Shown in pieces: positions 15,672-36,592 of a DNA stretch of 36,592 nt; position 1 is the stretch's first letter; each line of letters begins with the position of its first letter. This DNA is from Methylococcales bacterium (GTDB lineage: Bacteria; Pseudomonadota; Gammaproteobacteria; Methylococcales; Methylomonadaceae), in assembly GCA_003584895.1 (NCBI GenBank), contig QVQF01000091.1, positions 1 through 36,592 on the forward strand. The letters are read 5' to 3'. The notes beneath the pieces were generated by a model. That model made no database searches and had not been told where the DNA came from. It saw only the letters and a program-made list of their open reading frames with translations. Position numbers and translations under genes: made by a program.

Positions 15672-18356
15672 TCAAGCTAGTCTTAAATCTTTTACCACTC
15701 TGACGATGTCTTGATTTTGGGCAATGGCTTCTATGCTGAAACCTAGCTTACTAACTAGCGATAGCATGGGTTGGTTGATGGCCAGTACTTCACCTTCAAA
15801 AAATAACATGCCTTTGGTTTTGGCTGATTGCATTAAGCTGGTCATCAGGCGTGTGCCTATGCCTAGATTATGACAATCATCAGCTACCACTAGTGCAAAT
15901 TCGACGGATTGACCGTCGGGATTGGTTAGGTAACGTCCTACGGCGAGTTCAGTGATTTTGTGTTCATCTTCGGTAATGGCAATAAAAGCCATTTCTCGGT
16001 CATAATCAATTTGTGTAAAGCGCACGATCATTTCTGGGGTTAGTTCATGCAAGGCTTGCATAAAACGAAAGTATTTAGTGCGATCTGACAAACGACTGTG
16101 AAAGTTGGTTTCTAAGTCGGCATCTTCGGGACGTATGGGACGTATGCAGATATTAATGCCATTGCTTAATTGATGATGTGAGATCAGTTCATGAGGGTAG
16201 GGATGTATCGCCATGTGGGCATAATGACTGAGTTGGTTGCATAACTGCGCTTTAATACGAGCATCTACGGCAATGGCACCGTGCTCATCAACGATTAAAG
16301 GATTAATGTCCAACTCTAAGATTTCTGGTAATTCGCTGACCATGGTTGAGACATTCAGCAGTACTTCAATTAGAGCTTTTGTGTTGGCGGGGGGTAATTG
16401 TCGAAATGCCTTTAAGTATTTGGCCGCTTTGGTTTTGGCAATGAGTTGCTCAACCATATAGCTGTTAAGTGGGGGTAGGGCAACGGCATTATCTTGTAGG
16501 ATTTCTACCAAAGTCCCACCTAAACCAAAACTAATCGCCGGACCAAACAAGGGATCTCTTACTACGCCTATCATCAGTTCTCTGCCACTAGCGCTTTTAA
16601 ACATGGGTTCAACGGTCATACCTACCGTTGTGATCTCAGGATGTGTGAGTTTAATGGCTGCTTCCATCTCAGTGTAGTGTTTAGAAATTTCTTGAACGCT
16701 GTTTATGTTGAGCCTAACGCCGCCTATATCAGATTTATGGCTGAACTCAGCCATATTCACTTTTAAAACGACCGGGAAACGTAAGGTTTCTGAGGCAATC
16801 ATAGCGTCTTTTGCGCTAGCAACACTGATGGTTTGAGTGACGGGGATATTAAAGGCGGCCAAAATGGCTTTAGATTCTTGTGCGGTTAATACTTGGCGAC
16901 CTTCTGAAAGGACGCGTTCAATAATTAAGCGTGCGCCTGCAACATCGGGCTGGGCGAGTTCATCCGTTACTGTTGGGATTTGTTTAAGCAGGATTTGATT
17001 TTCTGCATAATTGGCTAAAAAAGCAAAGGCATCGACTGCTGTTTCAGGGGTATTAAAGTGCGCGACTTTGCTGTTTGCAAATAAATCACGCCCCGCCTGT
17101 ACTTTAGCTCCTCCGGTCCAAGACGCTAGCACTGGTTTATGGCTAGTCTTGGCGCCATCAATAATATATTCAGCGACTAAGGTGGGTTCGGTCATGGCTT
17201 GGGGCGTTAATATGACTAAGATGCCATCAATATTGTCGTCGTTAATGCAGACCTCTAAGGCTTGCCGATATCGATCAGCCGTGGCATCCCCTAAAATGTC
17301 GATAGGATTGGCGTGAGACCAATGCGGCGGTAATACAGCATTTAAACTTTCTAAACTGGTAGGATTTAATTGAGCCATTTGTATGCCTACATCTTCGGCG
17401 CGATCGGTACTCATCACACCAGGACCGCCGGCATTGGTAATAATAGCTAGGTGATCTTTTTTGACCACATAATTATTCGCTAGCACTCTGGCGGCAGAAA
17501 ATAACTCGGTAATGCTATAGGCTCTAACTACACCGGCTCTAGCAATGGCTGCATCGAAGACCTTGTCGCCGCCCACCATCGCGCCGGTATGAGACATGGC
17601 GGCTTTGCAGCCAGCTTCGTGGCGACCAGACTTTATCAGGATCACCGGTTTTAAACGTGCAGCGGCTTTAAGGCCACTTAAAAAGCGTCGGGCATCGCGT
17701 ATGCCTTCGACATACATTAAGATGCCGGTGGTTTTACTGTCGGTGGCTAGATAATCTAAGACTTCACCAAAATCAATATCAGCTGCACCACCCATAGAAA
17801 CCACGGTGGAAAAGCCTATGTCCTGAACTTTTGCCCAATCTAATATAGCTGTACAGACAGCGCCTGATTGCGATAACAAGGCAAGACTTCCATCTTTAAC
17901 AATACCATCACCAAAGGTAGCATTCAATTGGCCACTAGGACCTATGACGCCTAGGCAATTAGGGCCAATAATACGAATGCTGTAGCGATGGGCAATGCCT
18001 AGTATCTCTTGTTGTAAACGCTGGCCTTCTGCGCCTAGCTCTCCAAAACCAGCGCTGATGATAATGACTGAACTAACACCTTTGTCACCACATTGTCGCA
18101 ATATGCAGGGCACTGTCGGTGCGGGTGTGGCGATGACCACTAGATCTAAGTCTTCTGGAACAGCATGTAAATCAGGGTAAGCTTTGAGTCCTAATAATTG
18201 CTCATGTTTAGGATTGATAGGATAAAGTCCGCCGCTAAAGCCTGCTTCTTGCATGTTAAGCAGTAGTCTATAGCCCACACTATTTTCGCGTTCTGATGCG
18301 CCAACGATAGCAACAGAGTTAGGAGTAAAGAAATGTTGTAAATAATGAGGTCCCAT
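15672..18356 (-). CDS. pat: bifunctional acyl-CoA synthetase-like/GNAT protein lysine acetyltransferase (Pat/YfiQ type)
   Basis: Large protein built like E. coli PatZ/YfiQ (886 residues): an NDP-forming acyl-CoA synthetase-like region and a C-terminal GNAT domain. Residues 1-130 are a CoA-binding Rossmann domain (FFTPNSVAIVGASERENS). Then come succinyl-CoA-ligase-like parts (RIIGPNCLGVIGP, LLSQSGAVCTAILDWA and CKAAMSHTGAMVGGDKVFDAA), and an ATP-grasp portion at about 470-700 (VVLKVNMAEFSHKSDIGGV, ISFGLGGTLVEIL, ELDINPLIV). GNAT follows at about 720-894 (IRPIRPEDADLE, FALVVADDCHNLGIGTRLM, the acetyl-CoA loop). Known members acetylate acetyl-CoA synthetase and other proteins. It is alone on its strand, with a repeat upstream. 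Confidence 0.9.
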   Translation of the reverse strand: MGPHYLQHFFTPNSVAIVGASERENSVGYRLLLNMQEAGFSGGLYPINPKHEQLLGLKAYPDLHAVPEDLDLVVIATPAPTVPCILRQCGDKGVSSVIIISAGFGELGAEGQRLQQEILGIAHRYSIRIIGPNCLGVIGPSGQLNATFGDGIVKDGSLALLSQSGAVCTAILDWAKVQDIGFSTVVSMGGAADIDFGEVLDYLATDSKTTGILMYVEGIRDARRFLSGLKAAARLKPVILIKSGRHEAGCKAAMSHTGAMVGGDKVFDAAIARAGVVRAYSITELFSAARVLANNYVVKKDHLAIITNAGGPGVMSTDRAEDVGIQMAQLNPTSLESLNAVLPPHWSHANPIDILGDATADRYRQALEVCINDDNIDGILVILTPQAMTEPTLVAEYIIDGAKTSHKPVLASWTGGAKVQAGRDLFANSKVAHFNTPETAVDAFAFLANYAENQILLKQIPTVTDELAQPDVAGARLIIERVLSEGRQVLTAQESKAILAAFNIPVTQTISVASAKDAMIASETLRFPVVLKVNMAEFSHKSDIGGVRLNINSVQEISKHYTEMEAAIKLTHPEITTVGMTVEPMFKSASGRELMIGVVRDPLFGPAISFGLGGTLVEILQDNAVALPPLNSYMVEQLIAKTKAAKYLKAFRQLPPANTKALIEVLLNVSTMVSELPEILELDINPLIVDEHGAIAVDARIKAQLCNQLSHYAHMAIHPYPHELISHHQLSNGINICIRPIRPEDADLETNFHSRLSDRTKYFRFMQALHELTPEMIVRFTQIDYDREMAFIAITEDEHKITELAVGRYLTNPDGQSVEFALVVADDCHNLGIGTRLMTSLMQSAKTKGMLFFEGEVLAINQPMLSLVSKLGFSIEAIAQNQDIVRVVKDLRLA

Positions 18357-23802: not shown

Positions 23803-26800
23803 ATGGCCGTTATGAGAAGGCGTACCCCAAAGAAAGTGCAGAAGTTTCGATCTGTGTACATCGCTGTGGCATTGGTTGTTATTGGCCTTGTTGTGACTAA
23901 ATTAGTCCGTGATGAAGTTAAGACCTCTAAATATCAGGCACGTTATTTATCTTCTATTAGTGAACAATTAAGCTTTAAATTAGTTTCAGGCCCTAGTACC
24001 TCTATACGTTATCCTGAATATGGACCATATGACGAAAGGTTAGGGTATACCTTATTACCCGATGTCATTGAGCGTTTAGAAAGCACAGGCTTTAGCGTGA
24101 CCTCGCAAGCCTATGTTTCACCGATGATGACTGAGTTGGCTGATTATGGCTTATTTACGGTATATCATGAAAAAAGTCAGGCTGGACTTCGTATTACTGA
24201 TAAAAACGATCAAGTCGTTTTTAATGCATTATTCCCTGCTTATGGTTATTCAAATTTTAAAGCGATCCCGCCATTAATTCTTAACACCTTACTGTATATA
24301 GAAAATAGAGAATTACTAAGCGACGATAATAGTACGGTTAATCCTGCTATCGAATGGGATCGTCTAGGTTTTGCCGGTTTGCAATTAATGGCTCATAAGT
24401 TGGGTGTAACGGGTGCGGTTCCTGGTGGAAGTACGCTAGCGACGCAACTTGAAAAATACCGACATTCAAAGAATGGCTACACCAATTCCATTATGGATAA
24501 GTTTCGTCAGATGGGATCGGCTTCAGTACGCGCCTATTTAATGGGGCCGAATACGCTTGAAATGAGACAAGAAATAGCGCTGTCTTATTTAAATTCAATG
24601 CCATTAGCCGCAACACCTAAGCTTGGTGAAGTGCATGGCTTAGGTGATGGCTTATCCGCTTGGTTTAATGCAGATTTTGAGCAGACAAATCTATTACTCA
24701 AAGCTGATGCGTTAAAGCCACCTAAGCAGATTACTCCACAACAGGCACTCGCTTATCGCCAAGTGTTAAACATATTATTGTCGCAAAGAAGACCCTCGTA
24801 TTTTCTTGGGCGAGGTTTTGATGCCTTACAAAGGCTTACCGATAGATATTTACGTGTCATGACTGAACAAGGCGTGGTGTCGGTAGCTATGCGTGATGCG
24901 GCATTAAAGTTATCGAGCGTAACTCCGAATCGAAACATTAGTGCACCTACCAAGTTTATGGCCGAAAGAAAGACGCAAAATGTATTACGCACTCGTCTAG
25001 CTAAAGCACTGGGTGTTAGATCAAATTATGAACTAGATCGCTTAGATTTAACCGTTAAAACCACCTTAGATTATGACACTCAGCAAGCAGTCACTGATGC
25101 CCTTAAACAATTAAGTAAACCTGAGGCCGCTCGCAAAGCAGGTATATTAGGTTTTCGGCTGCTAAATGAAAACACTGATCTTACGCCTATAGTCTATAGC
25201 CTGATGTTATTTGAACGTAGTAATGCCGGTAATCTATTGCGAGTTCAGACCGATAATTATGATCAACCTTTGGATATCAACGAGGGTATAAGAATAGATT
25301 TAGGCTCTACTTCTAAATTACGTACCATGGTGCATTATCTTGAATTAGTCACTGATGTCTATCAACAGTACAAAAAATTATCTATCAAAAATTTAAATAC
25401 GCTAGAACTACACCCACGAGATAATTTGTCGACTTGGGTGGTCGAGCAGTTACGTTTGACGCCTAAAATCAATTTAGAAGATTTACTTAATCGAGCTCTT
25501 GATAAAACCTATTCTTCAAGTCCTGGCGAATATTTCTTTACTGGAGGTGGCCTACATCATTTTAATAACTTTACGCCCGATGAAGATGGGAAAATGATGT
25601 CAGTGCGCGATGCGTTACGCGATTCTGTCAACTTAGTGTTTATACGTTTGATGCGTGAAGTAGTTTATCATCATCTTTATAAACCAGATGGTCTTGCACG
25701 CTGGCTAGATAGTCCTGATGACCCAAAGCGAAATGAATATTTACAGCGTTTTGCTGATAATGAGGGGCGTGTTTATTTACAACGCTTTTATGCCAAATAT
25801 AAAGATAAAACACCTAAAGAAGTTTTGGCTATGTTATCAGGTAGGGTCGGCGTTACCCCTGCACGATTAAGTATGTTATTTCGCTCTGTCTATCCTGATC
25901 AAGATGAGGTCGCGTTAACTGCTTTTCTAAAAGAACATTTTGCAAAAACTGTAACGACTAATGATTACGATTCGTATAGTTTGTTTGATAAATACTCAGT
26001 GGAAAAATTTGATCTACAAGATCAAGGCTATATCACCAAAATTCATCCCTTAGAGTTATGGTTGGCGGGTTTTCTAGCCAAACACCCTAAAGCAAGTCAA
26101 GAACAAATCATGGCTGCCAGTGTCGATGAGCGCCAGGAAGTCTATCGATGGTTATTTAAAAATCATCGCGTCAATGCCCAGCAACAACGTATTATGACCT
26201 TGCTGGAAGAAGATGCCTTTAATGAAATCCATACCGCTTGGAAGCGTGTCGGTTATCCCTTTGATGCACTCACGCCTTCTTATGCAACCTCTATTGGAGC
26301 CTCAGGTGATAGACCAGCTGCTCTAGCCGAACTGACCGGTATTCTGGTTAATGATGGTATAAAATTACCTGTGGTGCGTTTTGATAGTTTGCATTATGCC
26401 CAAGGTACGCCTTATGAAACTCTGCTTAATAAAACGATTACTCCAGGTGAGAGGATTTTTGCTCCAGAAATTGCCAAAGTAGCTAGGGGCGCCTTAGTAG
26501 GTGTGGTTGAAGGTGGAACTGCCTCAAGGCTAAACGGTATTTATAAAGATGAGCAGGGTCAGTTATTGTCAGTGGGTGGCAAGACCGGCACTGGAGATCA
26601 TCGTAAGCAAATTTGGGGCCCAGGTGGACGACTCATAGAGTCAAAGTTTGTGAGTCGGGCGGCTACTTTTACCTTTTTTATTGGCGAGAAATACTTTGGG
26701 GTGATGACCGCTTATGTCGAGGGCGAGAACTCAGGGCTTTATCACTTTACCAGTTCATTGCCTGTGCAAATCATGAAATTTCTAAAGCCGACTTTATCAC

Positions 26801-27606
26801 CGTTGATTAATGGTTTAACTAAAGAGGCGCAGGCAAAACCAGAAGATCAGGAAGTGATTGCAGAAAAAGCTAAGCCCGTAATGACGTCAAATAGTACTAG
26901 TATAGTTCAGCCATCATTAGCGCCTGTTGCTAAAGCTACGATTGTTGAAAAACCCAAGCCCATACTTACTTCAAACAATACAACTGTAGTGCAGCCATCG
27001 GTAGCACCTGTTACAAAAGTAACGATTGCAGAGAAAGTTAAGCCTGCAATAACACCTAGCAACACAGCTATAGTTCAGTTGTCTGCACAGCCTATCTCTA
27101 AAGCAACAAATGTTGAAAAACCAAAGCCCGTGGTGGCTTCAAGCAATGCTACTTTAGTTCAGTCATCATTAGCACCTGTTGCAAAAGTATCGATTGCTGA
27201 AAAACCAAAGACCGTAATAAATCCAAGTAATCCTGCTTTAGCTCAGTCATCTGAAAAGCCTGTGGTTAAAAACAATTTGCCGTCCAGTGATAAGACTAGT
27301 GCTAATAAGGTAGTGAGTATTAATGATGCCAAGTCTGTAATTAAACCAGACAGCTACAAAATACCTAATCCGCCAGTAAAAGAGGCTACCGCTAAGGTGT
27401 TAACATTGCCTATTAAAAAAGCTACGTCTGAAGTGCCGGCTGGTATTAGTAAGGTTGTTAAAGCAGCAGTGGCAGAAACATCAATCAAATTGCCTAGTTC
27501 GGTTACAGAAAATACTAAGCCGCCTGTTTTAGGCTCTTCAGAGCCCGCAGATAAAAGTCGCTATTATAAATATCCCGAGTCACAGAAAGCTGTCATTAAT
27601 CATTAA
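23803..27606 (+). CDS. divergent class A-like penicillin-binding protein (GT51 + transpeptidase) with long repeat tail
   Basis: Inner-membrane, mostly periplasmic protein. One helix (about residues 20-37) follows a basic N-terminus. A divergent GT51 domain covers about 130-300: motif 1 is YIENREL with E167 kept but the following Phe and His lost; motif 2 is GGSTLATQLEKYRHS; in motif 3 the usual RKxxE reads RQMGS, so the second catalytic Glu seems absent. The transpeptidase domain looks active: S502-T-S-K505, S608-V-N610 and K927-T-G929. The SxN-to-KTG distance (over 300 residues) is unusually long because of an inserted region at about 640-830. Residues 1019-1158 are five 28-residue repeats, then a Lys/Pro/Ser-rich tail to 1267. 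Start has a weak ribosome-binding site. The gene ends 6 bases from convergent mobA. I have a weak memory of similar proteins in other proteobacteria with the same altered GT motifs. Confidence 0.82.
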   Translation: MAVMRRRTPKKVQKFRSVYIAVALVVIGLVVTKLVRDEVKTSKYQARYLSSISEQLSFKLVSGPSTSIRYPEYGPYDERLGYTLLPDVIERLESTGFSVTSQAYVSPMMTELADYGLFTVYHEKSQAGLRITDKNDQVVFNALFPAYGYSNFKAIPPLILNTLLYIENRELLSDDNSTVNPAIEWDRLGFAGLQLMAHKLGVTGAVPGGSTLATQLEKYRHSKNGYTNSIMDKFRQMGSASVRAYLMGPNTLEMRQEIALSYLNSMPLAATPKLGEVHGLGDGLSAWFNADFEQTNLLLKADALKPPKQITPQQALAYRQVLNILLSQRRPSYFLGRGFDALQRLTDRYLRVMTEQGVVSVAMRDAALKLSSVTPNRNISAPTKFMAERKTQNVLRTRLAKALGVRSNYELDRLDLTVKTTLDYDTQQAVTDALKQLSKPEAARKAGILGFRLLNENTDLTPIVYSLMLFERSNAGNLLRVQTDNYDQPLDINEGIRIDLGSTSKLRTMVHYLELVTDVYQQYKKLSIKNLNTLELHPRDNLSTWVVEQLRLTPKINLEDLLNRALDKTYSSSPGEYFFTGGGLHHFNNFTPDEDGKMMSVRDALRDSVNLVFIRLMREVVYHHLYKPDGLARWLDSPDDPKRNEYLQRFADNEGRVYLQRFYAKYKDKTPKEVLAMLSGRVGVTPARLSMLFRSVYPDQDEVALTAFLKEHFAKTVTTNDYDSYSLFDKYSVEKFDLQDQGYITKIHPLELWLAGFLAKHPKASQEQIMAASVDERQEVYRWLFKNHRVNAQQQRIMTLLEEDAFNEIHTAWKRVGYPFDALTPSYATSIGASGDRPAALAELTGILVNDGIKLPVVRFDSLHYAQGTPYETLLNKTITPGERIFAPEIAKVARGALVGVVEGGTASRLNGIYKDEQGQLLSVGGKTGTGDHRKQIWGPGGRLIESKFVSRAATFTFFIGEKYFGVMTAYVEGENSGLYHFTSSLPVQIMKFLKPTLSPLINGLTKEAQAKPEDQEVIAEKAKPVMTSNSTSIVQPSLAPVAKATIVEKPKPILTSNNTTVVQPSVAPVTKVTIAEKVKPAITPSNTAIVQLSAQPISKATNVEKPKPVVASSNATLVQSSLAPVAKVSIAEKPKTVINPSNPALAQSSEKPVVKNNLPSSDKTSANKVVSINDAKSVIKPDSYKIPNPPVKEATAKVLTLPIKKATSEVPAGISKVVKAAVAETSIKLPSSVTENTKPPVLGSSEPADKSRYYKYPESQKAVINH
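26857..27276 (+). repeat. five in-frame 84-bp tandem repeats in the PBP tail
   Basis: Units begin exactly at 26857, 26941, 27025, 27109 and 27193, each 28 codons. The consensus is roughly I-[AV]-E-K-x-K-P-V-x-x-x-S-N-x-[TA]-x-V-Q-x-S-x-x-P-V-x-K-x-T, for example IVEKPKPILTSNNTTVVQPS. DNA identity between units is only moderate, with many silent and conservative changes, so the array is old and is kept as protein. The composition is that of an extended periplasmic linker. Confidence 0.93.
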
Positions 27607-28318: not shown

Positions 28319-30433
28319 TTACCAGCCGCTTTCTCTGATCATAACGGCAAGTGCAGAACGAACTAAACGTCCAGATATACTTTCAGCAGGTGTAGTTAGT
28401 TTCAATCGACCTCGAACGGCATACGGAAGTGTATCGCTGGTATTTTTAATGTCTAATTGTAGACGATAAACACCTTGCTCAGGAATCAAGTGATGTTGCT
28501 CATCTTCTCTGACGGCAATAGCGCCACCATAGCGCGAACTGAGTTCAGCTAAACTTAATTGGCGTGTGCCAGAAGGATCAATACTGAGTACGTTAACTAA
28601 AATAGGCGCTAAATCAGCACCATCAGGATAAAAAACACCACTTGCTCCTAGTTGTAAGCGTTGTAAATCAGCTTCTTCAGTATAAGCGATGACTACGTTA
28701 CTGGGACTAATCACTACACCTAAGGGTTCGTCTTTTGCTAGCCATTCACCTGAGCGCAAAGAGTCAGATAAATCTCGTATTTGGCCATTAAAGCTGGCAC
28801 GTATGGTCAGTTTATCATATGCAGCGTGCAGACCTTGTAGTTCGGCTAAGGTTGACTGTAAGGCTTCCATATCCATAGGGTTATGTCTAGCTAAGGTCAA
28901 GTCAAGGCTCTGTGATGCGAGTTGTTGCGTTAACTCAGCCCAACGTAGTTCAGCGGTATGTATACGAAAATCAAGGTCTGGCGAGGTTAATTCCAACAGT
29001 ACTTGTCCTTCTGTAACTGCATCACCCTCATGAATTAATACGTGTTTAACCTTTGAGGGTTGAGGACTATATAAGATAAATTCAGCTGTCCCTTTAAGTA
29101 AGCCTGGAATCAGTATATGTGTTTGCCAAGGTACAACGAGTATGGCGATAGCTATAATAGGTATAGACCAAGCTAGATGAGGTCTAGGACTAGCGTCTTG
29201 CTTCGTAAATAACTCACGCCAAATAACGATTTCTTTAAAAATAGGCCTAGCGACAAACCAGATAATTTCTACGGCAAATAAGCCTAAACCCAGTGCTTTA
29301 AAGAAAAAATGATAAACCGCCCAAGCGATGCCGGTAAATAATAATAAGCGGTAAACCCAAGTCGCGTAAGCATAGGCAATGAGTAAACGTTGTCGATTTT
29401 TATGCCATAATTCAGGTGGTGATAAGTTAAAGCGAAATAGACATTCGCGTAAATGCCAACGCGCTAAAGCAAAGGAACGGTCTTGTAGATTAGCAATGTC
29501 GAGTAGATCAGTGAGTAAATAATAGCCATCAAAACGCATAAAAGGGTTTAGATTGATGGCTAAGGTGACTAACCAGGTTGAGCTAGCCAAAACATAAACC
29601 CCACTGCGCAAAGAGCCATCGGGTAATAAAGCCCATAACAAGGTTGCTAAGGCTGCCAATATCAATTCGGCAAACATGCCTGCAGCATCAATGATTAAAC
29701 GATCTTGGCGACGAGGCAAACGCCAAGCATCGGTAACATCGGTCCATAGTACCGGGAAACCCATCATAAGAGCGATACCCATGCTAGGCACACGACAGCC
29801 AAAATGGCTGGCAGCTAAAGCATGACCTAACTCGTGTATTAGCTTAGCTAATGACAGCATGACCGCTGTCGTTAGCATGCCTTCTGGTGTAACTACATAA
29901 AGAAAACTATGGCTAAAACTTGTCCATTGCTGCGTGATTAGATAAGCCGCTAATACAGACACTAATAGTAATATTAGCAAGCTGCGGCGATTAAAAAATA
30001 GGTTAACGATGGGCAGAGCTCTTTTTAAAAAAGGCCCAGGCTTTAATAAGGGTACGCGCATAAACAAATAGTTATGCAATAGCCATAGCCAAAACCCAGT
30101 ATGTGAGTTCTTTTTAAGCTGAGCTAAAAACTGACTCGCTTCGGCACCTTTAGGTTTAGATAAGTGATGATTGAGGAGGAATTTAGCAAAAGCTTCAATT
30201 TCCGAGATTGAGGTACTTATAGGTGTAGAGTGTTCGATGGCTGCGACAATTTGTTCTGCGTTAGCTAATGACCAATATTGTAAACATTCGAACTCTAACC
30301 AACCTAATCGATAATAGCGATGTGCAGCTTGATCATATAAAGTCCAAGTAGGTGAACCATCAAGTGCTCTAGGTCCTGGATAAATAGCTAAGTCTTCACG
30401 TAGTTGTGGCCAGCTTGCTAAGCTTTCTACCAT
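28319..30433 (-). CDS. M50 (site-2-protease-like) membrane protein with C-terminal HlyD adaptor and possible PqqD-like N-terminus
   Basis: Polytopic membrane protein of unusual design. Numbering from the ORF-track start: residues 20-75 (LREDLAIYPGPRALDGSPTW, LYDQAAHRYYRLGWLEFECL) look like a compact strand-rich/helical domain similar in pattern to PqqD-type peptide-binding domains. About 160-450 hold eight or more membrane helices with the zinc motif H215-E-L-G-H219 and the third ligand region NPFMRFDG (D317), both M50 hallmarks. After about 455 comes a periplasmic HlyD/lipoyl-type adaptor (PSKVKHVLIHEGDAVTEGQVL, coiled coil, then beta-barrel). I start at ATG 30433, which overlaps the previous stop (ATGGTAG); the ORF-track ATG at 30478 would overlap by 52 bases and neither has a good ribosome-binding site. 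Related proteins are annotated as putative peptide zinc metalloprotease. It is last in the operon. Confidence 0.85.
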   Translation of the reverse strand: MVESLASWPQLREDLAIYPGPRALDGSPTWTLYDQAAHRYYRLGWLEFECLQYWSLANAEQIVAAIEHSTPISTSISEIEAFAKFLLNHHLSKPKGAEASQFLAQLKKNSHTGFWLWLLHNYLFMRVPLLKPGPFLKRALPIVNLFFNRRSLLILLLVSVLAAYLITQQWTSFSHSFLYVVTPEGMLTTAVMLSLAKLIHELGHALAASHFGCRVPSMGIALMMGFPVLWTDVTDAWRLPRRQDRLIIDAAGMFAELILAALATLLWALLPDGSLRSGVYVLASSTWLVTLAINLNPFMRFDGYYLLTDLLDIANLQDRSFALARWHLRECLFRFNLSPPELWHKNRQRLLIAYAYATWVYRLLLFTGIAWAVYHFFFKALGLGLFAVEIIWFVARPIFKEIVIWRELFTKQDASPRPHLAWSIPIIAIAILVVPWQTHILIPGLLKGTAEFILYSPQPSKVKHVLIHEGDAVTEGQVLLELTSPDLDFRIHTAELRWAELTQQLASQSLDLTLARHNPMDMEALQSTLAELQGLHAAYDKLTIRASFNGQIRDLSDSLRSGEWLAKDEPLGVVISPSNVVIAYTEEADLQRLQLGASGVFYPDGADLAPILVNVLSIDPSGTRQLSLAELSSRYGGAIAVREDEQHHLIPEQGVYRLQLDIKNTSDTLPYAVRGRLKLTTPAESISGRLVRSALAVMIRESGW

Positions 30434-31761
30434 GGTAACCAGAGTCTTGCCGTACGTAATGGCTTGCGTAGCAACCATAACAAAAAGGGTCTACGTGTAC
30501 CGTATAATTTAGCAATACCGTGATAACCTAAACGCGGTAACTCTGAGCCCTCAGTAAATTCTGCTTTAAGTCGATAAGCCATAACATCCGCTGGAGTAGG
30601 ACTAGTACGATAACTAAAATAAGTCAATTTAGCTTGTAAAGGTTGATGGGGAGATACATTAGAGAAAAACTGCACCAAATCGCCTGCCTGCAGTTCGATT
30701 AAATCATCCATGGGTAAGCGTATTTCCAAATCAATCGTTTGAGGATTGGCGATTGCTAGAATTTTTTCACCCTGAGTAACAGGACGTCCCAGCCAATCAT
30801 TGGGATCATCAAATACGGCGACACCTGATTGATTGGCCACGACCTCGCAACGCTCGAGTAGGGTGTGTACATAATCGGCTTCTGAGTTTTGTTGATCCCA
30901 TTTGCTTTTTAAACCGGCTAATTTAGCTTTTACAGTAGGATCCAGTAAGGCTTGCTGGGTCATTTGTAAATATTCAGTTTGGGCAATATCACGCGTTTCT
31001 TCAGCGACATTAAGACGGCTTTGTAATTGCGCCTTATCTAAAGAAAATAATTTTTGGCCGGCACTGACGCTTTCATTAGGTAATACATAAAAGTTTTCTA
31101 CTACACCTTCAAGCGGCGCTCTAACCAGATTGGGTTGATGAGGAACTACTTCCGCTTCAGCCAACACAGATTGATGTATAGGAAAAAAAGTTGCGGCCAG
31201 TAGCAGACCTCCGACTATAAACCCCCGTCGGTGTCCTTTTACATGCGTTTGCCAAGAGACTTTAGTTTGATTAGCTTCCGACAACGCTAAGGTATAGCCA
31301 TAGGCTTCACCTAAATAAGCCAGTAAATGCAGCTCTGCTTCATGCCAAGAAGTCTCTCTAAATAATACCAAGACATAAGTGCCGCCTGAGGGAGCAGGTA
31401 AGGGGAGCCATAAGGCATATTCAGGTGCCCAACTGGGCCAATCATGAGCCAGTTCCTCAGCTAAGTCTTTAGCACTAAATTCTGCAATATTATCGGCACG
31501 AATATCGTTACTAAAGTGTTTTAACACAGGCAGCAGCCAAAGTGCGTAAGGACTGTTTTTTTCTAGACTGACAACGCCTGAAGCGGCGTTAATAGTATTG
31601 CTAGCTTTATTCCACAGTATTGCCTGTCGATAAGGCAGTAACTCGCTAGTTTCATTGACTATGACATAAGGCAATTCTGCAGCAGGCGCTAACCTAGCGC
31701 GTGATTCTAACTGCAGTAAAAGTGTCAGCCTTATTAAGCGAGGATCAGGAAGTTCTGTCAT
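30427..31761 (-). CDS. HlyD-family adaptor with cytoplasmic GAF-like domain
   Basis: Membrane fusion protein with an extra N-terminal domain. Residues about 1-165 are soluble and have the look of a GAF domain (ELPYVIVNETSELLPYRQAI, ALWLPLPAPSGGTYVLVLFR, ELHLLAYLGEAYGYTLAL). One membrane helix follows (about 179-200, GFIVGGLLLAATFFPI), then a periplasmic adaptor: a first lipoyl half (LVRAPLEGVVENFYVLPNES), a coiled-coil hairpin at about 250-300, the second lipoyl half (CEVVANQSGVAVFDD...GEKILAIA) and a beta-barrel. It starts inside the stop of the preceding gene (ATGA) and overlaps the M50 gene. The GAF call is by overall pattern, not by fixed residues. Its likely role is a sensor or energising-partner contact inside the cell joined to an adaptor outside. 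Confidence 0.8.
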   Translation of the reverse strand: MTELPDPRLIRLTLLLQLESRARLAPAAELPYVIVNETSELLPYRQAILWNKASNTINAASGVVSLEKNSPYALWLLPVLKHFSNDIRADNIAEFSAKDLAEELAHDWPSWAPEYALWLPLPAPSGGTYVLVLFRETSWHEAELHLLAYLGEAYGYTLALSEANQTKVSWQTHVKGHRRGFIVGGLLLAATFFPIHQSVLAEAEVVPHQPNLVRAPLEGVVENFYVLPNESVSAGQKLFSLDKAQLQSRLNVAEETRDIAQTEYLQMTQQALLDPTVKAKLAGLKSKWDQQNSEADYVHTLLERCEVVANQSGVAVFDDPNDWLGRPVTQGEKILAIANPQTIDLEIRLPMDDLIELQAGDLVQFFSNVSPHQPLQAKLTYFSYRTSPTPADVMAYRLKAEFTEGSELPRLGYHGIAKLYGTRRPFLLWLLRKPLRTARLWLPW

Positions 31762-32504
31762 GGGTTGCTGATAAATTCTATTGCACCGCTCATGCCCGGT
31801 AACAACTCATCCGCTTTATCAATAATGTGACCATACACTTTAATGGTTTGACTAACAGGATCGACCTTGCCGCCCACTTTAGTGATTTCAGCAGTATACG
31901 ATTTAGCGACTTCATCTAAGGTGACTTTAAAATGCTTACCCACCGTTAGGTTGGGCATGGAACGAGAAGGTGCCATAAACTCAATTTCTAAGTCTTTATC
32001 ATCTAAAATTTCTAGCAATGGATCGCCAGGACGGACTGATTGATAAAGACGAGCATTGACTTCAGAGACTCTGCCAGAAAAAGGAGCATGTATCACACAT
32101 CGATCCAGCATAGCTTGAGTGATACGAACATCGGCTTTAGCTTCTTCTGCCTCGGCTTTAGATACAGCGAGTTCTAAGGCACCAATTGAACGGCGAGTTT
32201 CTAGTTGTTGATTAACTTCATAGACTTTAAGTTTTTTGCCAAGAGTCGCTTGGCTTTTGCTTAATTGGGCTTCCTCAAGAGTACAATGAAAGCCCACTAG
32301 CACTTGTCCGGCACTAAAACGTTCCCCATCATGCAGTTTAAGCTGGCTGATTCTAGCGCTAATTTCACTAGAAATCAGAGTGCTTTGCCTAGATTTAAGT
32401 TGTGCGCGTAAATGCAGGTCTGAACTCATAAATTGAGCCTCGGCCAGTACCGGCAGTTGCCAAAATACCAAGCTCAAAGTTAGTAATAAGCAGCGAAAAC
32501 TCAT
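31758..32504 (-). CDS. small RND/HlyD-type periplasmic adaptor subunit
   Basis: A 248-residue adaptor with a Sec signal peptide (MSFRCLLLTLSLVFWQLPVLAEA). The order is lipoyl half (SSEISARISQLKLHDGERFS, GQVLVGF), a helical hairpin (about residues 80-130), the second lipoyl half (CVIHAPFSGRVSEVNARLYQ, GDPLLEI) and a barrel domain ending KVYGHIIDKADELLPGMSG. It lacks the C-terminal membrane-proximal domain of full RND adaptors, so it is short. Expected partners are the TolC-like protein upstream and the two membrane-bound adaptors downstream. It overlaps both neighbours by 4 bases (ATGA), so the genes are translationally coupled. No RND pump or ABC ATPase is next to it. Confidence 0.88.
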   Translation of the reverse strand: MSFRCLLLTLSLVFWQLPVLAEAQFMSSDLHLRAQLKSRQSTLISSEISARISQLKLHDGERFSAGQVLVGFHCTLEEAQLSKSQATLGKKLKVYEVNQQLETRRSIGALELAVSKAEAEEAKADVRITQAMLDRCVIHAPFSGRVSEVNARLYQSVRPGDPLLEILDDKDLEIEFMAPSRSMPNLTVGKHFKVTLDEVAKSYTAEITKVGGKVDPVSQTIKVYGHIIDKADELLPGMSGAIEFISNP

Positions 32505-34036
32505 TCTGTGATGGCTTCCTGTGTTGGGGGTGTAGATATTTCTGGAAGTTTGGGTAAATCACCGGCATACCAGCGGTTTAAAGTCTTTTCTAGTTGAACT
32601 GACAGTGTTCGTACAGTGACATGTTCAATAATGCCGCTAGCAGGGTCAAGGCCAATAGACGCATAAATATTGCCTAAAGCAGTATAAACATCGGCTAGAC
32701 TTTGCTCTTTTTCTAGTTGAGAGGCTAAAGCTGAGGTTGCCGCGTGAATACGATCTAGCTCAGAGCCCGCGTCAACTTCGGTATTATTGCTAATGGCTTT
32801 AAACAGGCTTTGGTCTATATTGCTTAATTCACTGGCACTTTGATAACCGTCTAAGGCTTTAAGATATTGCTGATAACCAATGTTAATTTGCACTACAGCA
32901 GCAATGCTTAAAGCTTTGCGTCGAGTTTTGGCCACTTCAATTTGAGTTTGGGCTGTTTTCCATGTTTTAGGTGCTGAGACCAAATTAACTAAATTAAAAG
33001 TTGTGCGTGCACTCGCTTCCAGCCACGTTGTGTGTACCAAAAAGGAATTGCTATCCCAGTTAGCTGAAAGAGGAATGGTTAAACCTGGCATAGCTTTTAA
33101 CAGTTCTTTCCAGACTTCGTTACGACTGATACGTTCCTGATAAAGTTCTTCACGCAATTCTGGTCTAAAGAACAAGCCCATGCTTTCTAATTCAGCTGGC
33201 GTAGATTTTAATACTGGTGCTTCTGGGGTTTGTTCAGGATGCGCCAAGGTAAAGTTAGAGTTCATAGGGACATTAATTAAACCGGCTAATTTAGGCTTAG
33301 CAGAGTTTAAATCGGCTCTTAGTTTTTTTAATTGAGCAATGACACGTAACAAACTACGTTGATATTCTAGGACGCCCACCACTGGTTGCAAGCGGTCTTC
33401 GCCGATAGCTTTGCTTAATTTAAGCGCTTCTTCTGCTTGGGCCAGTACCGGTATCAGTTGTGGCAATAAGCGTTCAGCAATATTAGTACTCCAATAAGCC
33501 GACAGCACTTCTTTAACCAAATTATTGATTACTTTACGGCGACGTTCTTGCGCGATTAAGATTCTGTCCGCTTGTTGTTTGGCTTGAAAATAACTGGTAC
33601 CAAAGTCGAGTAAATTCCAAGTAAAGGCCAAGTCAGCAACACCTCGGTTAGTATCTTGAGATGTTGACGGCACCAAAGATTGGACACGTGTAGTCACATT
33701 AGTGCTAGATGATGCCAGCTCACTTTGTCGTCCCATATAGCCCGCATCAACCGCCAATCGTGGCAACATGTTGAGTGTAGCCACTTCAAGTTGAGAATCT
33801 TGTAATACTTTTTCCATCATAGTTAAACGATGATCAAAGTTATATTTAAGAGCCCGTGCTAAGGCATCATAAAAAGTCAAAGGCTGAGTGATAGGTTCCT
33901 GGTGACTATAAATTTCTGTTTGGTCACTCAACATAGTGTTTAAGCGCGATTGGGCATCTATGGGTTGTGGCGTAATGGAGCAACTGCTTAAGGTGCTTGC
34001 TATCAAGGCAAGACTAACGGTTTTGTAAAAAGACAT
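32501..34036 (-). CDS. TolC-family outer-membrane efflux lipoprotein
   Basis: Outer-membrane channel of the TolC/OprM type. It starts with a lipoprotein signal: hydrophobic core then lipobox LSSC, with Cys19 as the likely lipidated residue. Two OEP repeats are visible: the first around 55-280 (FYDALARALKYNFDHRLTMME, DLAFTWNLLDFGTSYFQAKQQ) and the second around 285-480 (FFRPELREELYQERISRNEV, ARTTFNLVNLVSAPKTWKTA). Long helices follow each, as in TolC. At 511 residues it has family length. The C-terminus is Pro/Thr-rich. It begins 26 bases after the giant repeat protein and overlaps the adaptor gene, so one transcript probably covers all five genes. Confidence 0.9.
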   Translation of the reverse strand: MSFYKTVSLALIASTLSSCSITPQPIDAQSRLNTMLSDQTEIYSHQEPITQPLTFYDALARALKYNFDHRLTMMEKVLQDSQLEVATLNMLPRLAVDAGYMGRQSELASSSTNVTTRVQSLVPSTSQDTNRGVADLAFTWNLLDFGTSYFQAKQQADRILIAQERRRKVINNLVKEVLSAYWSTNIAERLLPQLIPVLAQAEEALKLSKAIGEDRLQPVVGVLEYQRSLLRVIAQLKKLRADLNSAKPKLAGLINVPMNSNFTLAHPEQTPEAPVLKSTPAELESMGLFFRPELREELYQERISRNEVWKELLKAMPGLTIPLSANWDSNSFLVHTTWLEASARTTFNLVNLVSAPKTWKTAQTQIEVAKTRRKALSIAAVVQINIGYQQYLKALDGYQSASELSNIDQSLFKAISNNTEVDAGSELDRIHAATSALASQLEKEQSLADVYTALGNIYASIGLDPASGIIEHVTVRTLSVQLEKTLNRWYAGDLPKLPEISTPPTQEAITE

Positions 34037-34062
34037 AGTAAGAGAATTAATGAGTTAAATGA

Positions 34063-36592
34063 TTACAGGTTTTTTAAGCTATCTAGCAGGGCACGACTTT
34101 CTTGCAGTCGACTTAGTTTTCCTGCCATGTGTACTTGTTGGGTAAAGCTTTGTTTGCTATGCAGTGCTTCAAAATGATTAACCAAGCGAGTATTGCTTAT
34201 AGGTTTTTGAATGCTGGCATTGGGACTCGGTGTATTAGGTAATACAGGGATATCTCCTTGCTGATTATCTAATTGGGGTTTTGTTTGGGTATTATCCTCT
34301 TTACTAATGCCAACTTTAAAAGTAGCACTCACTTCTTTGCCATAACTATCTTTAGCCGTCACTGTTACCGTTTCTGGCGTAACACCTTTAGGCGGGACAC
34401 CAGAGAACTTTAAGGTTTTTGGATCAAAGTTTAACCAAGCGGGCAAAGCTTTACCTGAGCTGGTTGTAGCTTCAAAAACCAATTGTTCATTAGGATTACT
34501 ATGCACAAATATTGAAGCGGGGATTTGAAAGGAATAATTTTGGTTCTCCGTGACCAACTGGTTACGAACAGATCCTACTAGCGATAGTTCGAAATTTAAG
34601 GCGTTATCTTGTGATTTAGCTTGTTGTGATGGAGAGGAAAAATCATTGCTGCTAGTAGTAGCTTCATTTTTAGCACCAGAAACAGGGTTCATTACAGTTA
34701 CAGTGCTAGGAGTACTGGGAGGCGAGTATGTAAACGGCGAAGGAGTCGGGTTAGCTAACTGAATACTTGAACCTGGTGAGCTAAAAGTACCGTTGATAGT
34801 AATAGTTAATACTGTGGTGCTATGGTTGCCATCGCTATCAGTGATAGTGTAAGTAAAAGTTTCGGTTAGTGTTTGTCCAAAAGGTAGTGCCGATACCGCA
34901 GCATTGCTGTTATTTAGTGTGTAAGTATAGTTTCCATCAGCGTTGAGGATCAGGTTGCCGTAAGTTGAGGCAAAAGCAGAGCCTACTGTGTAAGGAACGC
35001 CGTTAAAGCTGACAGCAGATACGGGCGTTGCTGTCGTGTCAGCACCAATACGATCGTTAGTGACTACATTGCCGGAGACGATTACGGCAGTGTTGCTTTC
35101 AGTAACACTGGCTGTATCAGGGTTAGCGGTAGGCACATCATTAATGATGTCGACGACTAAACTACCATTGCTGCTAGTATCCGCCGCGTTAGTAATGACT
35201 AAAGCGATAGTATCAGTGCTGTCAGTTCCCCCTGTTTGAATGAGGTTATGAGGTAAGCTGTAACTGTAATTTAAAGTGCCAGTGGTCGTTACACCGCCGA
35301 CACTCGTCGTGGTTGTAAAGCCGGTCAGCGTCAGAATGCCACTGCTAGTCGTTATCGCCACCGGTGTAGTGGTTAAGTGATTCAAGGCTTCGACGTTAAA
35401 AGATTGCCCAGCCACCGAGACGCTCGTTAAGCCATCCAGTGCACTGAGGGTAATAGCGCCTGTGGTTGTTTGGCTATTATCTGAAGGTGTAACCAGTCCC
35501 TTTTCATAAACAGTGATTTGACCCGGTGCACTATCGTTAGCATCTACTGGCGTAATAGTGGGTGCGCCATCAGTATGGCCATTAATGGTGATCGTCAGCG
35601 TAGTGGTTGAGGTGCCGCCTCTGCCGTCATTAATAGTGTAGGTGTAAGTATCCTGTAGGGTTTGACTAGTCAATAGTCCGTTGACCGTAGGGTTATTGTT
35701 ATTCAGCGTATAGGTGTAACTGCCATCGGTGTTCAGCACGATGCTACCGTAGTTACCAGATACTGTGTTACCGACATTGGTATTACTCACCGGACCGCTA
35801 TTGCTTCCAGATACTATACCCTGCACCGCTAATGTATCGCCATCTTGGTCAGTGGCAGGGCTATTGCTAGCGCCGGCGCCTGAAATGACATTTCCGGTAG
35901 CTGTGTTAGGTGTTGCATCTTCGGTAATGCTAGTAGTTTGAGCAGGAGTGACCGGTAGACGGTCGATGTTGACGGTGATAGTGCCAACGGCCGTTAATAG
36001 GCCGCCGCCGCCTTGATCTTGTCCGCTACCTGCTGTGCCGCTACCCGTATTATTGTTGTTCTGGTCATTAATGGTGATAGCTAAAATCACGCTGTTATAA
36101 CTTAAATCACCAGGGGTAGTGACTGCATTGCTATAAGTAATATTCTGTAAGGCTGTATTAACTAAAGACGCAGTGGCATTACTATTAAAGGTAAGCTCTA
36201 AGGTGCCGCCGCTGTTGGTGTAACTGCCTATATTGGTTGAACTGACCAGCAAATTACTGGCAGTTAAGCTAAGACTGCCGCTGGCGCCGAATTGGTCATC
36301 GGCACTTGAAATGCCTTGACGGGTAACAGTTAGCGTCGCGCCGCTCCAATTATTGCGTTCGGTGACCAATTCTTGATCGACCAAGGTCAAGGTGGCGATG
36401 CTTTCTAGCACTACAGCAGTTCCAGACTGTATGTAAAGATTGGTGGAAGTCGCAGGTAGGTCGATAATTGTGGGAGCATCGTTGATAGCAGTAACACTGG
36501 TATTCAGCGTTACTGCATTGCTGCTGTTGCTGTAACGAGTAGTGCCACCTGATAAGCTGGTGTCATTAGATACGTCAACTGAAGTTCCTGTC
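34063..36592 (-). CDS. C-terminal part of a large VCBS/Ig-like repeat surface protein (runs off the right edge)
   Basis: The ORF track begins at GTG 36411, but the frame stays open to the window edge (about 60 more codons, including the domain-boundary phrase TSVTAINDAPTI), so the real start lies outside. The visible 840 or so residues are Thr/Ser/Asn/Gly-rich repeat domains with almost no Cys: cadherin/Ig-like units, two VCBS-like repeats, a Pro/Ser-rich linker (NPTPSPFTYSPPSTPSTVTV), one putative Ig/dystroglycan-cadherin-like domain (LPAWLNFDPKTLKFSGVPP...VTVTAKDSYG) and a charged helical tail ending LSRLQESRALLDSLKNL. Proteins of this type are secreted adhesins, often several thousand residues. 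No RTX nonapeptides or LPXTG motif are visible in this part. It is first in line of the exporter-like operon, so it is the natural substrate candidate. Confidence 0.87.
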   Translation of the reverse strand, partial: TGTSVDVSNDTSLSGGTTRYSNSSNAVTLNTSVTAINDAPTIIDLPATSTNLYIQSGTAVVLESIATLTLVDQELVTERNNWSGATLTVTRQGISSADDQFGASGSLSLTASNLLVSSTNIGSYTNSGGTLELTFNSNATASLVNTALQNITYSNAVTTPGDLSYNSVILAITINDQNNNNTGSGTAGSGQDQGGGGLLTAVGTITVNIDRLPVTPAQTTSITEDATPNTATGNVISGAGASNSPATDQDGDTLAVQGIVSGSNSGPVSNTNVGNTVSGNYGSIVLNTDGSYTYTLNNNNPTVNGLLTSQTLQDTYTYTINDGRGGTSTTTLTITINGHTDGAPTITPVDANDSAPGQITVYEKGLVTPSDNSQTTTGAITLSALDGLTSVSVAGQSFNVEALNHLTTTPVAITTSSGILTLTGFTTTTSVGGVTTTGTLNYSYSLPHNLIQTGGTDSTDTIALVITNAADTSSNGSLVVDIINDVPTANPDTASVTESNTAVIVSGNVVTNDRIGADTTATPVSAVSFNGVPYTVGSAFASTYGNLILNADGNYTYTLNNSNAAVSALPFGQTLTETFTYTITDSDGNHSTTVLTITINGTFSSPGSSIQLANPTPSPFTYSPPSTPSTVTVMNPVSGAKNEATTSSNDFSSPSQQAKSQDNALNFELSLVGSVRNQLVTENQNYSFQIPASIFVHSNPNEQLVFEATTSSGKALPAWLNFDPKTLKFSGVPPKGVTPETVTVTAKDSYGKEVSATFKVGISKEDNTQTKPQLDNQQGDIPVLPNTPSPNASIQKPISNTRLVNHFEALHSKQSFTQQVHMAGKLSRLQESRALLDSLKNL
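34789..35137 (-). repeat. VCBS-like domain repeat, copy B
   Basis: Encodes the unit PTANPDTASVTESNT...GNLILNADGNYTYTLNN...TFTYTITDSDGNHSTTVLTI. It parallels copy A at 35576-35950 (YGSIVLNTDGSYTYTLNN..., YTYTINDGRGGTSTTTLTI) with the same order of motifs but clear divergence. Confidence 0.7.
35576..35950 (-). repeat. VCBS-like domain repeat, copy A
   Basis: Encodes TTSITEDATPNTATGNV... followed by YGSIVLNTDGSYTYTLNNNN and YTYTINDGRGGTSTTTLTI, the typical VCBS pattern. Between copies A and B lies a different Ig-like unit of about 145 residues rich in TTT/STS runs. Confidence 0.7.

Follow-up and report, generated by a model that had tools for sequence, protein, structure and literature searches.

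The window (the whole 36,592-nucleotide stretch of contig QVQF01000091.1, from a bacterium of the Methylococcales) carries the gene for a divergent, bifunctional class A penicillin-binding protein (PBP). Judging from its sequence, the glycosyltransferase (GT51) domain has a rewired active site but is probably still able to polymerise lipid II. The basis for this reading is that the catalytic base E167 is invariant among homologues, motif 2 and the lysines that align with K274 and K287 of PBP1b are kept, and the motif-3 glutamate is replaced by an invariant glutamine. The initial annotation had suggested that the protein may be a transpeptidase with a retired or altered glycosyltransferase. Alteration is borne out, as the motif changes are found throughout the family. 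Retirement is unlikely because E167 and most of motif 2 are invariant (as are K218, K233, Y262 and N264), the GT51 and transpeptidase domains are about equally conserved, the predicted GT51 structure resembles that of Aquifex, and glutamine occupies the same position in PBP1c.

Domain organization and predicted structure

The gene (23803..27606, + strand, as for all features of the protein given below) encodes 1267 amino acids. The assignment draws on the open reading frame, a Pfam GT51 match and Foldseek comparison of the AlphaFold2 (AF2) model with structures 3dwk and 5hlb. A hydrophobic stretch, VYIAVALVVIGLVVT, is modelled by AF2 as an N-terminal membrane-spanning helix (residues 10-41, 23830..23925). 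This is followed by an alpha/beta domain in the AF2 secondary structure (residues 58-144, 23974..24234), which occupies the place of UB2H in PBP1b, and by the GT51 core (residues about 146-340, 24238..24822), identified by Pfam, an AF2 model of residues 122-385 and Foldseek similarity to Aquifex GT51. The PF00912 (GT51) match covers residues 150-296 with 38.9 bits (gathering cut-off 27). The transpeptidase motifs S502xxK505 (25306..25317), S608xN610 (25624..25632) and K927TG (26581..26589) are intact, as originally noted, and invariant in homologues. The protein has the features of a class A PBP: GT51 and a penicillin-binding transpeptidase in one membrane-anchored chain, with SxxK, SxN and KTG all present. 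The order of parts and the overall fold are those of canonical class A PBPs (E. coli PBP1b and PBP1a, S. aureus PBP2), but the protein is only about 12% identical to them and differs in motif 1, motif 3 and the R286 position. It also differs in that a conserved insertion of mostly helical structure (residues about 631-790, 25693..26172, from AF2 and conservation) separates SxN from KTG, and its transpeptidase domain was not recognised by PF00905 in the genome profile scan. SxN and KTG are 319 residues apart; the spacing is much shorter in PBP1b, by its numbering.

The AF2 model of residues 1-1008 has a mean pLDDT of 89.6 and a pTM of 0.81, and in the PDB Foldseek matches it best to the class A PBPs of S. 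aureus (PBP2, 3dwk, E 1.9e-14) and E. coli (PBP1b, 5hlb). For the GT part modelled alone (residues 122-385, pTM 0.82), GT51 structures with the lysozyme-like GT51 fold rank at the top, with TMt values of 0.79-0.83 for Aquifex GT51. Searching PDB sequences with a profile of the GT domain gave only chance matches, so the structural relatives are drawn from Foldseek alone. The closest solved fold to the GT domain is that of Aquifex aeolicus PBP1a (3nb6, 2oqo, 3d3h), with about 15% identity. Unlike the divergent protein, the Aquifex domain has the canonical catalytic pair.

The C-terminal tail includes about five imperfect 84-nucleotide (28 amino acid) repeats rich in Lys, Pro, Ser and Thr (26856-27275). 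Tail length among homologues ranges from 0 to 439 amino acids.

Conserved and altered positions of the GT51 domain

Conservation was counted over 118 distinct homologues. The letters YIENREL, GGSTLATQ and RQMGS, on which the initial annotation relied, are present in the open reading frame. Its statement that motif 1 keeps E167 (24301..24303) holds in 118/118 homologues, and hhalign and MAFFT place this residue at PBP1b E233, the motif-1 glutamate that is the GT51 catalytic base (PMC3608906; PMC8119973). Also invariant are GGSTL, T214, Q215, E217, K218, S222, K233, Q236, Y245, R255, Y262 and N264. Motif 2 (GGSTLATQLEKYRHS, residues 208-222, 24424..24468) is nearly invariant in the homologue and MAFFT alignments; its GGSTLxTQ is kept in full, K218 corresponds to PBP1b K274, and E217 takes the place of V273.

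Several positions usual in GT51 are changed, and the survey of the 118 homologues indicates that the altered motifs are conserved throughout. D234 is replaced by Asn, and the motif-1 Phe and His reported as lost are replaced family-wide, F237 by Leu171 and H240 by N180 (24340..24342), the latter an Asn in all homologues and preceded by a six-residue insertion in the MAFFT alignment. The R286 column holds position 232 (D232 here, 24496..24498), which is Asp in 82 and Glu in 36 of the homologues and is a candidate relocated acid. PBP1b R372, to which tuning of the E233 pKa is ascribed (PMC8119973), aligns with Leu in the MAFFT alignment. The changes at D234, F237, H240 and R286, together with the Leu in the R372 column, count against a working glycosyltransferase.

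The clustering of family-wide changes in motif 1 (the insertion and N180), after motif 2 (EKYRHS) and after motif 3 could instead reflect an active GT51 domain in which the new motif 1 and insertions near the site accompany a changed acceptor or donor, or short, non-processive products. We regard this as distinctly unlikely, as no unusual peptidoglycan-precursor gene was seen nearby and the neighbours are housekeeping genes that differ between clades.

Mean pairwise identity is 0.61 for the GT core (residues 146-300, with 43 of 155 columns conserved to at least 97%), much like the values of 0.59 and 0.61 for the two halves of the transpeptidase. A decaying domain would not be expected to look like this. 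Such conservation could also be compatible with a GT domain that only binds.

In six genomes of one genus (G015, G106, G131, G136, G145 and G160), the alignment of the homologue is split in two near residue 303 within a single long open frame, which suggests that extra sequence has been inserted where the GT domain ends.

Position of the motif-3 glutamate

The initial annotation proposed that the GT51 domain had lost a catalytic glutamate, and one glutamate is indeed missing, but at a different position from the one named. It had read RQMGS as the RKxxE motif, with Ser in place of the second catalytic Glu. This is possible if R235-Q236 are matched to R-K. Comparison with PBP1b shifts the register: K287 corresponds to K233 and E290 to Q236 (24508..24510). 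The HMMER alignment to a canonical GT51 profile built from 38 proteins pairs 'srKikea' with 'MDKFRQM', and hhalign gave the same K233/Q236 register in local and global modes with three different trims. A joint MAFFT alignment of 96 sequences, including PBP1c, PBP1a, PBP1b and MtgA, is gap-free across motif 3, which reads DKFRQMGSA in the divergent family, GKIRQLWRA in PBP1c, RKANEAYMA in PBP1b and RKIKEVFLA in PBP1a. In the AF2 model the first residue of the motif-3 helix is 230, which agrees with the alignment of S229 to PBP1b S283. The alignments and the helix start set the register and contradict S239 as the E290 equivalent: the change at motif 3 is Glu to Gln, with S239 (24517..24519) one helical turn beyond Q236. 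Position 236 is Gln in 118/118 homologues, so the RKxxE glutamate is absent throughout, and position 239 is Ser in 75 and Thr in 43.

Of other acids considered as substitutes, E257 (in RQEIAL) was rejected, as the position is poorly kept among homologues (E 51, Q 33, R 15). E217, aligned to V273 beside K274, is invariant. No intermediate homologue with Glu at position 236 was found in the profile search, in which full members score above 340 bits and all else about 28 bits or below.

Comparison with PBP1c

Glutamine at motif 3 is a known natural state of GT51 sequences, since E. coli PBP1c (PbpC) has KIRQ and Gln occurs in 9 of 17 PBP1c-type proteins (16 readable proteins above the cut-off plus E. 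coli PbpC), the others having Glu (7) or Ala (1). In the canonical PBP1a, PBP1b and MtgA sequences of the comparison, this column holds Glu. Because E. coli PBP1c and roughly half of the PBP1c type carry Gln, the motif-3 Glu is not a strict requirement of GT51. The divergent PBP shares with PBP1c the K-x-R-Q motif 3, with Gln in the E290 column and an adjoining Met or Leu, and shares with the TIGR02073 (PBP1c) group the combination of GT51 and transpeptidase. The two differ in that PBP1c has a standard motif 1 (EDxxFxxHxG), retaining D234, F237 and H240, and lacks six-residue insertions. The family is not PBP1c: in the GT51 tree it forms its own clade (support 100) on a long stem, with PBP1c outside, and TIGR02073 was not among the NCBIfam matches of the protein. 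The best match to TIGR02073 in its own genome is PBP1b, under the cut-off.

PBP1c is said to have been found by Schiffer and Holtje in 1999 to polymerise glycan in vitro. It is listed among the glycosyltransferases (PMC10455606), and its overproduction brought back LdtD-dependent wall labelling in the absence of PBP1b, an effect that its authors connect with GTase supply (PMC6131605); little in vivo role is known for it (PMC7554673).

Proposed mechanism and alternatives

In the favoured reading of a rewired but active site, E167 would take a proton from the 4-OH of lipid II, K218 and K233 would grip the donor pyrophosphate, and the role of E290 would fall to Q236, perhaps together with the acidic residue 232, which precedes it by one turn of the helix. 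The attached transpeptidase (S502) would then cross-link the new strand. Mutation of the E. coli GT base greatly reduces the transpeptidase activity of PBP1A and PBP1B (PMC4632607), so an intact transpeptidase fits a need for an active glycosyltransferase.

The Gln at the E290 position and the Asp/Glu at the R286 position, on the same helix, allow two active scenarios. The second carboxylate may be dispensable, as the analogy with PBP1c suggests. Alternatively, it may have moved by one turn, from the E290 site (Gln236) to the R286 site (Asp/Glu232), with the motif-1 His becoming Asn; we consider this relocation unlikely.

A rather unlikely alternative is that the GT domain does not polymerise but binds lipid II or nascent glycan and passes strands made by RodA, FtsW or PBP1b to the active transpeptidase. 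The loss of the motif-3 Glu, the change of four more motif residues in nearly every homologue and the invariant transpeptidase motifs fit such a role, and the genome encodes PBP1b and two SEDS proteins able to make strands. However, the base E167 is kept in 118/118 homologues, as is GGSTL, constraint on the GT domain is not relaxed relative to the transpeptidase, Gln at motif 3 is common in PBP1c, and genomes with the gene have no extra SEDS gene.

SEDS proteins, genome content and neighbourhood

The source genome (2.6 Mb, 96% complete) encodes its two SEDS proteins on different contigs (C45 and C16), each sharing the contig with a class B-like transpeptidase. No SEDS family match was found among the scanned window ORFs around the gene. 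Dependence on a SEDS partner, as the initial annotation suggested, is not supported by gene content: whether or not a genome carries the gene, it nearly always has exactly two SEDS genes, and on these counts we dismissed a dedicated partner. Given also the motif-3 register, the version with Ser in place of the second catalytic Glu and polymerisation supplied by a SEDS partner is very improbable.

One other GT51 protein is encoded in the genome, an ordinary PBP1b-like protein (on C85); a whole-genome GT51 search found no PBP1a, PBP1c or MtgA. We compared 41 genomes of the same family, with Pfam hits sorted by eye according to extent and score. PBP1a-type proteins are missing from 10 of 25 genomes with the gene vs 0 of 16 without it (Fisher p 0.003), or by genus from 7 of 18 vs 0 of 11 (p 0.026, one genus being mixed). 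Replacement of PBP1a-type synthases by the divergent PBP in some genomes is a hint only, because of the sorting by eye, the mixed genus, the relatedness (non-independence) of the genomes and the small sample.

A conserved neighbourhood was rejected, as flanking genes differ between clades and are shared only among closer relatives. In the window, a cluster at 28319-36411 (- strand) resembles an adhesin or peptide export system. It encodes a 719 aa protein in which an M50 site-2-type protease is joined to an HlyD-like adaptor, along with two further HlyD-like adaptors, a TolC-like outer membrane protein and a large protein with Ig/cadherin domains. The M50 protease matches a daptide biosynthesis metalloprotease model, under the cut-off. 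Also encoded (15672-18356, - strand) is an 894 amino acid acyl-CoA ligase of the ADP-forming type whose C-terminal part is a GNAT acetyltransferase, resembling the protein acetyltransferase Pat.

Distribution and significance

Members of the family occur across the Methylococcales, in Burkholderiales (Massilia, Cupriavidus, Caballeronia, Herbaspirillum) and in Pseudogulbenkiania, Aeromonas and Sphingobium. No transitional form is seen, given the gap between members (>340 bits) and the highest-scoring other sequence (28.3 bits). Public annotation, where there is any, is mostly 'transglycosylase domain-containing protein', and our literature search found no paper on this subfamily. The family forms a discrete and apparently undescribed clade of class A PBPs.

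The second GT51 glutamate is usually counted among the active-site residues (PMC12229560). Its role is less firmly established than that of the motif-1 glutamate. The clade-wide Gln, together with E. coli PBP1c, provides a natural experiment on whether this carboxylate is needed for glycan polymerisation. If active, the altered GT site could differ in moenomycin sensitivity. The protein represents a widespread type of class A PBP that may substitute for PBP1a in some methanotrophs.
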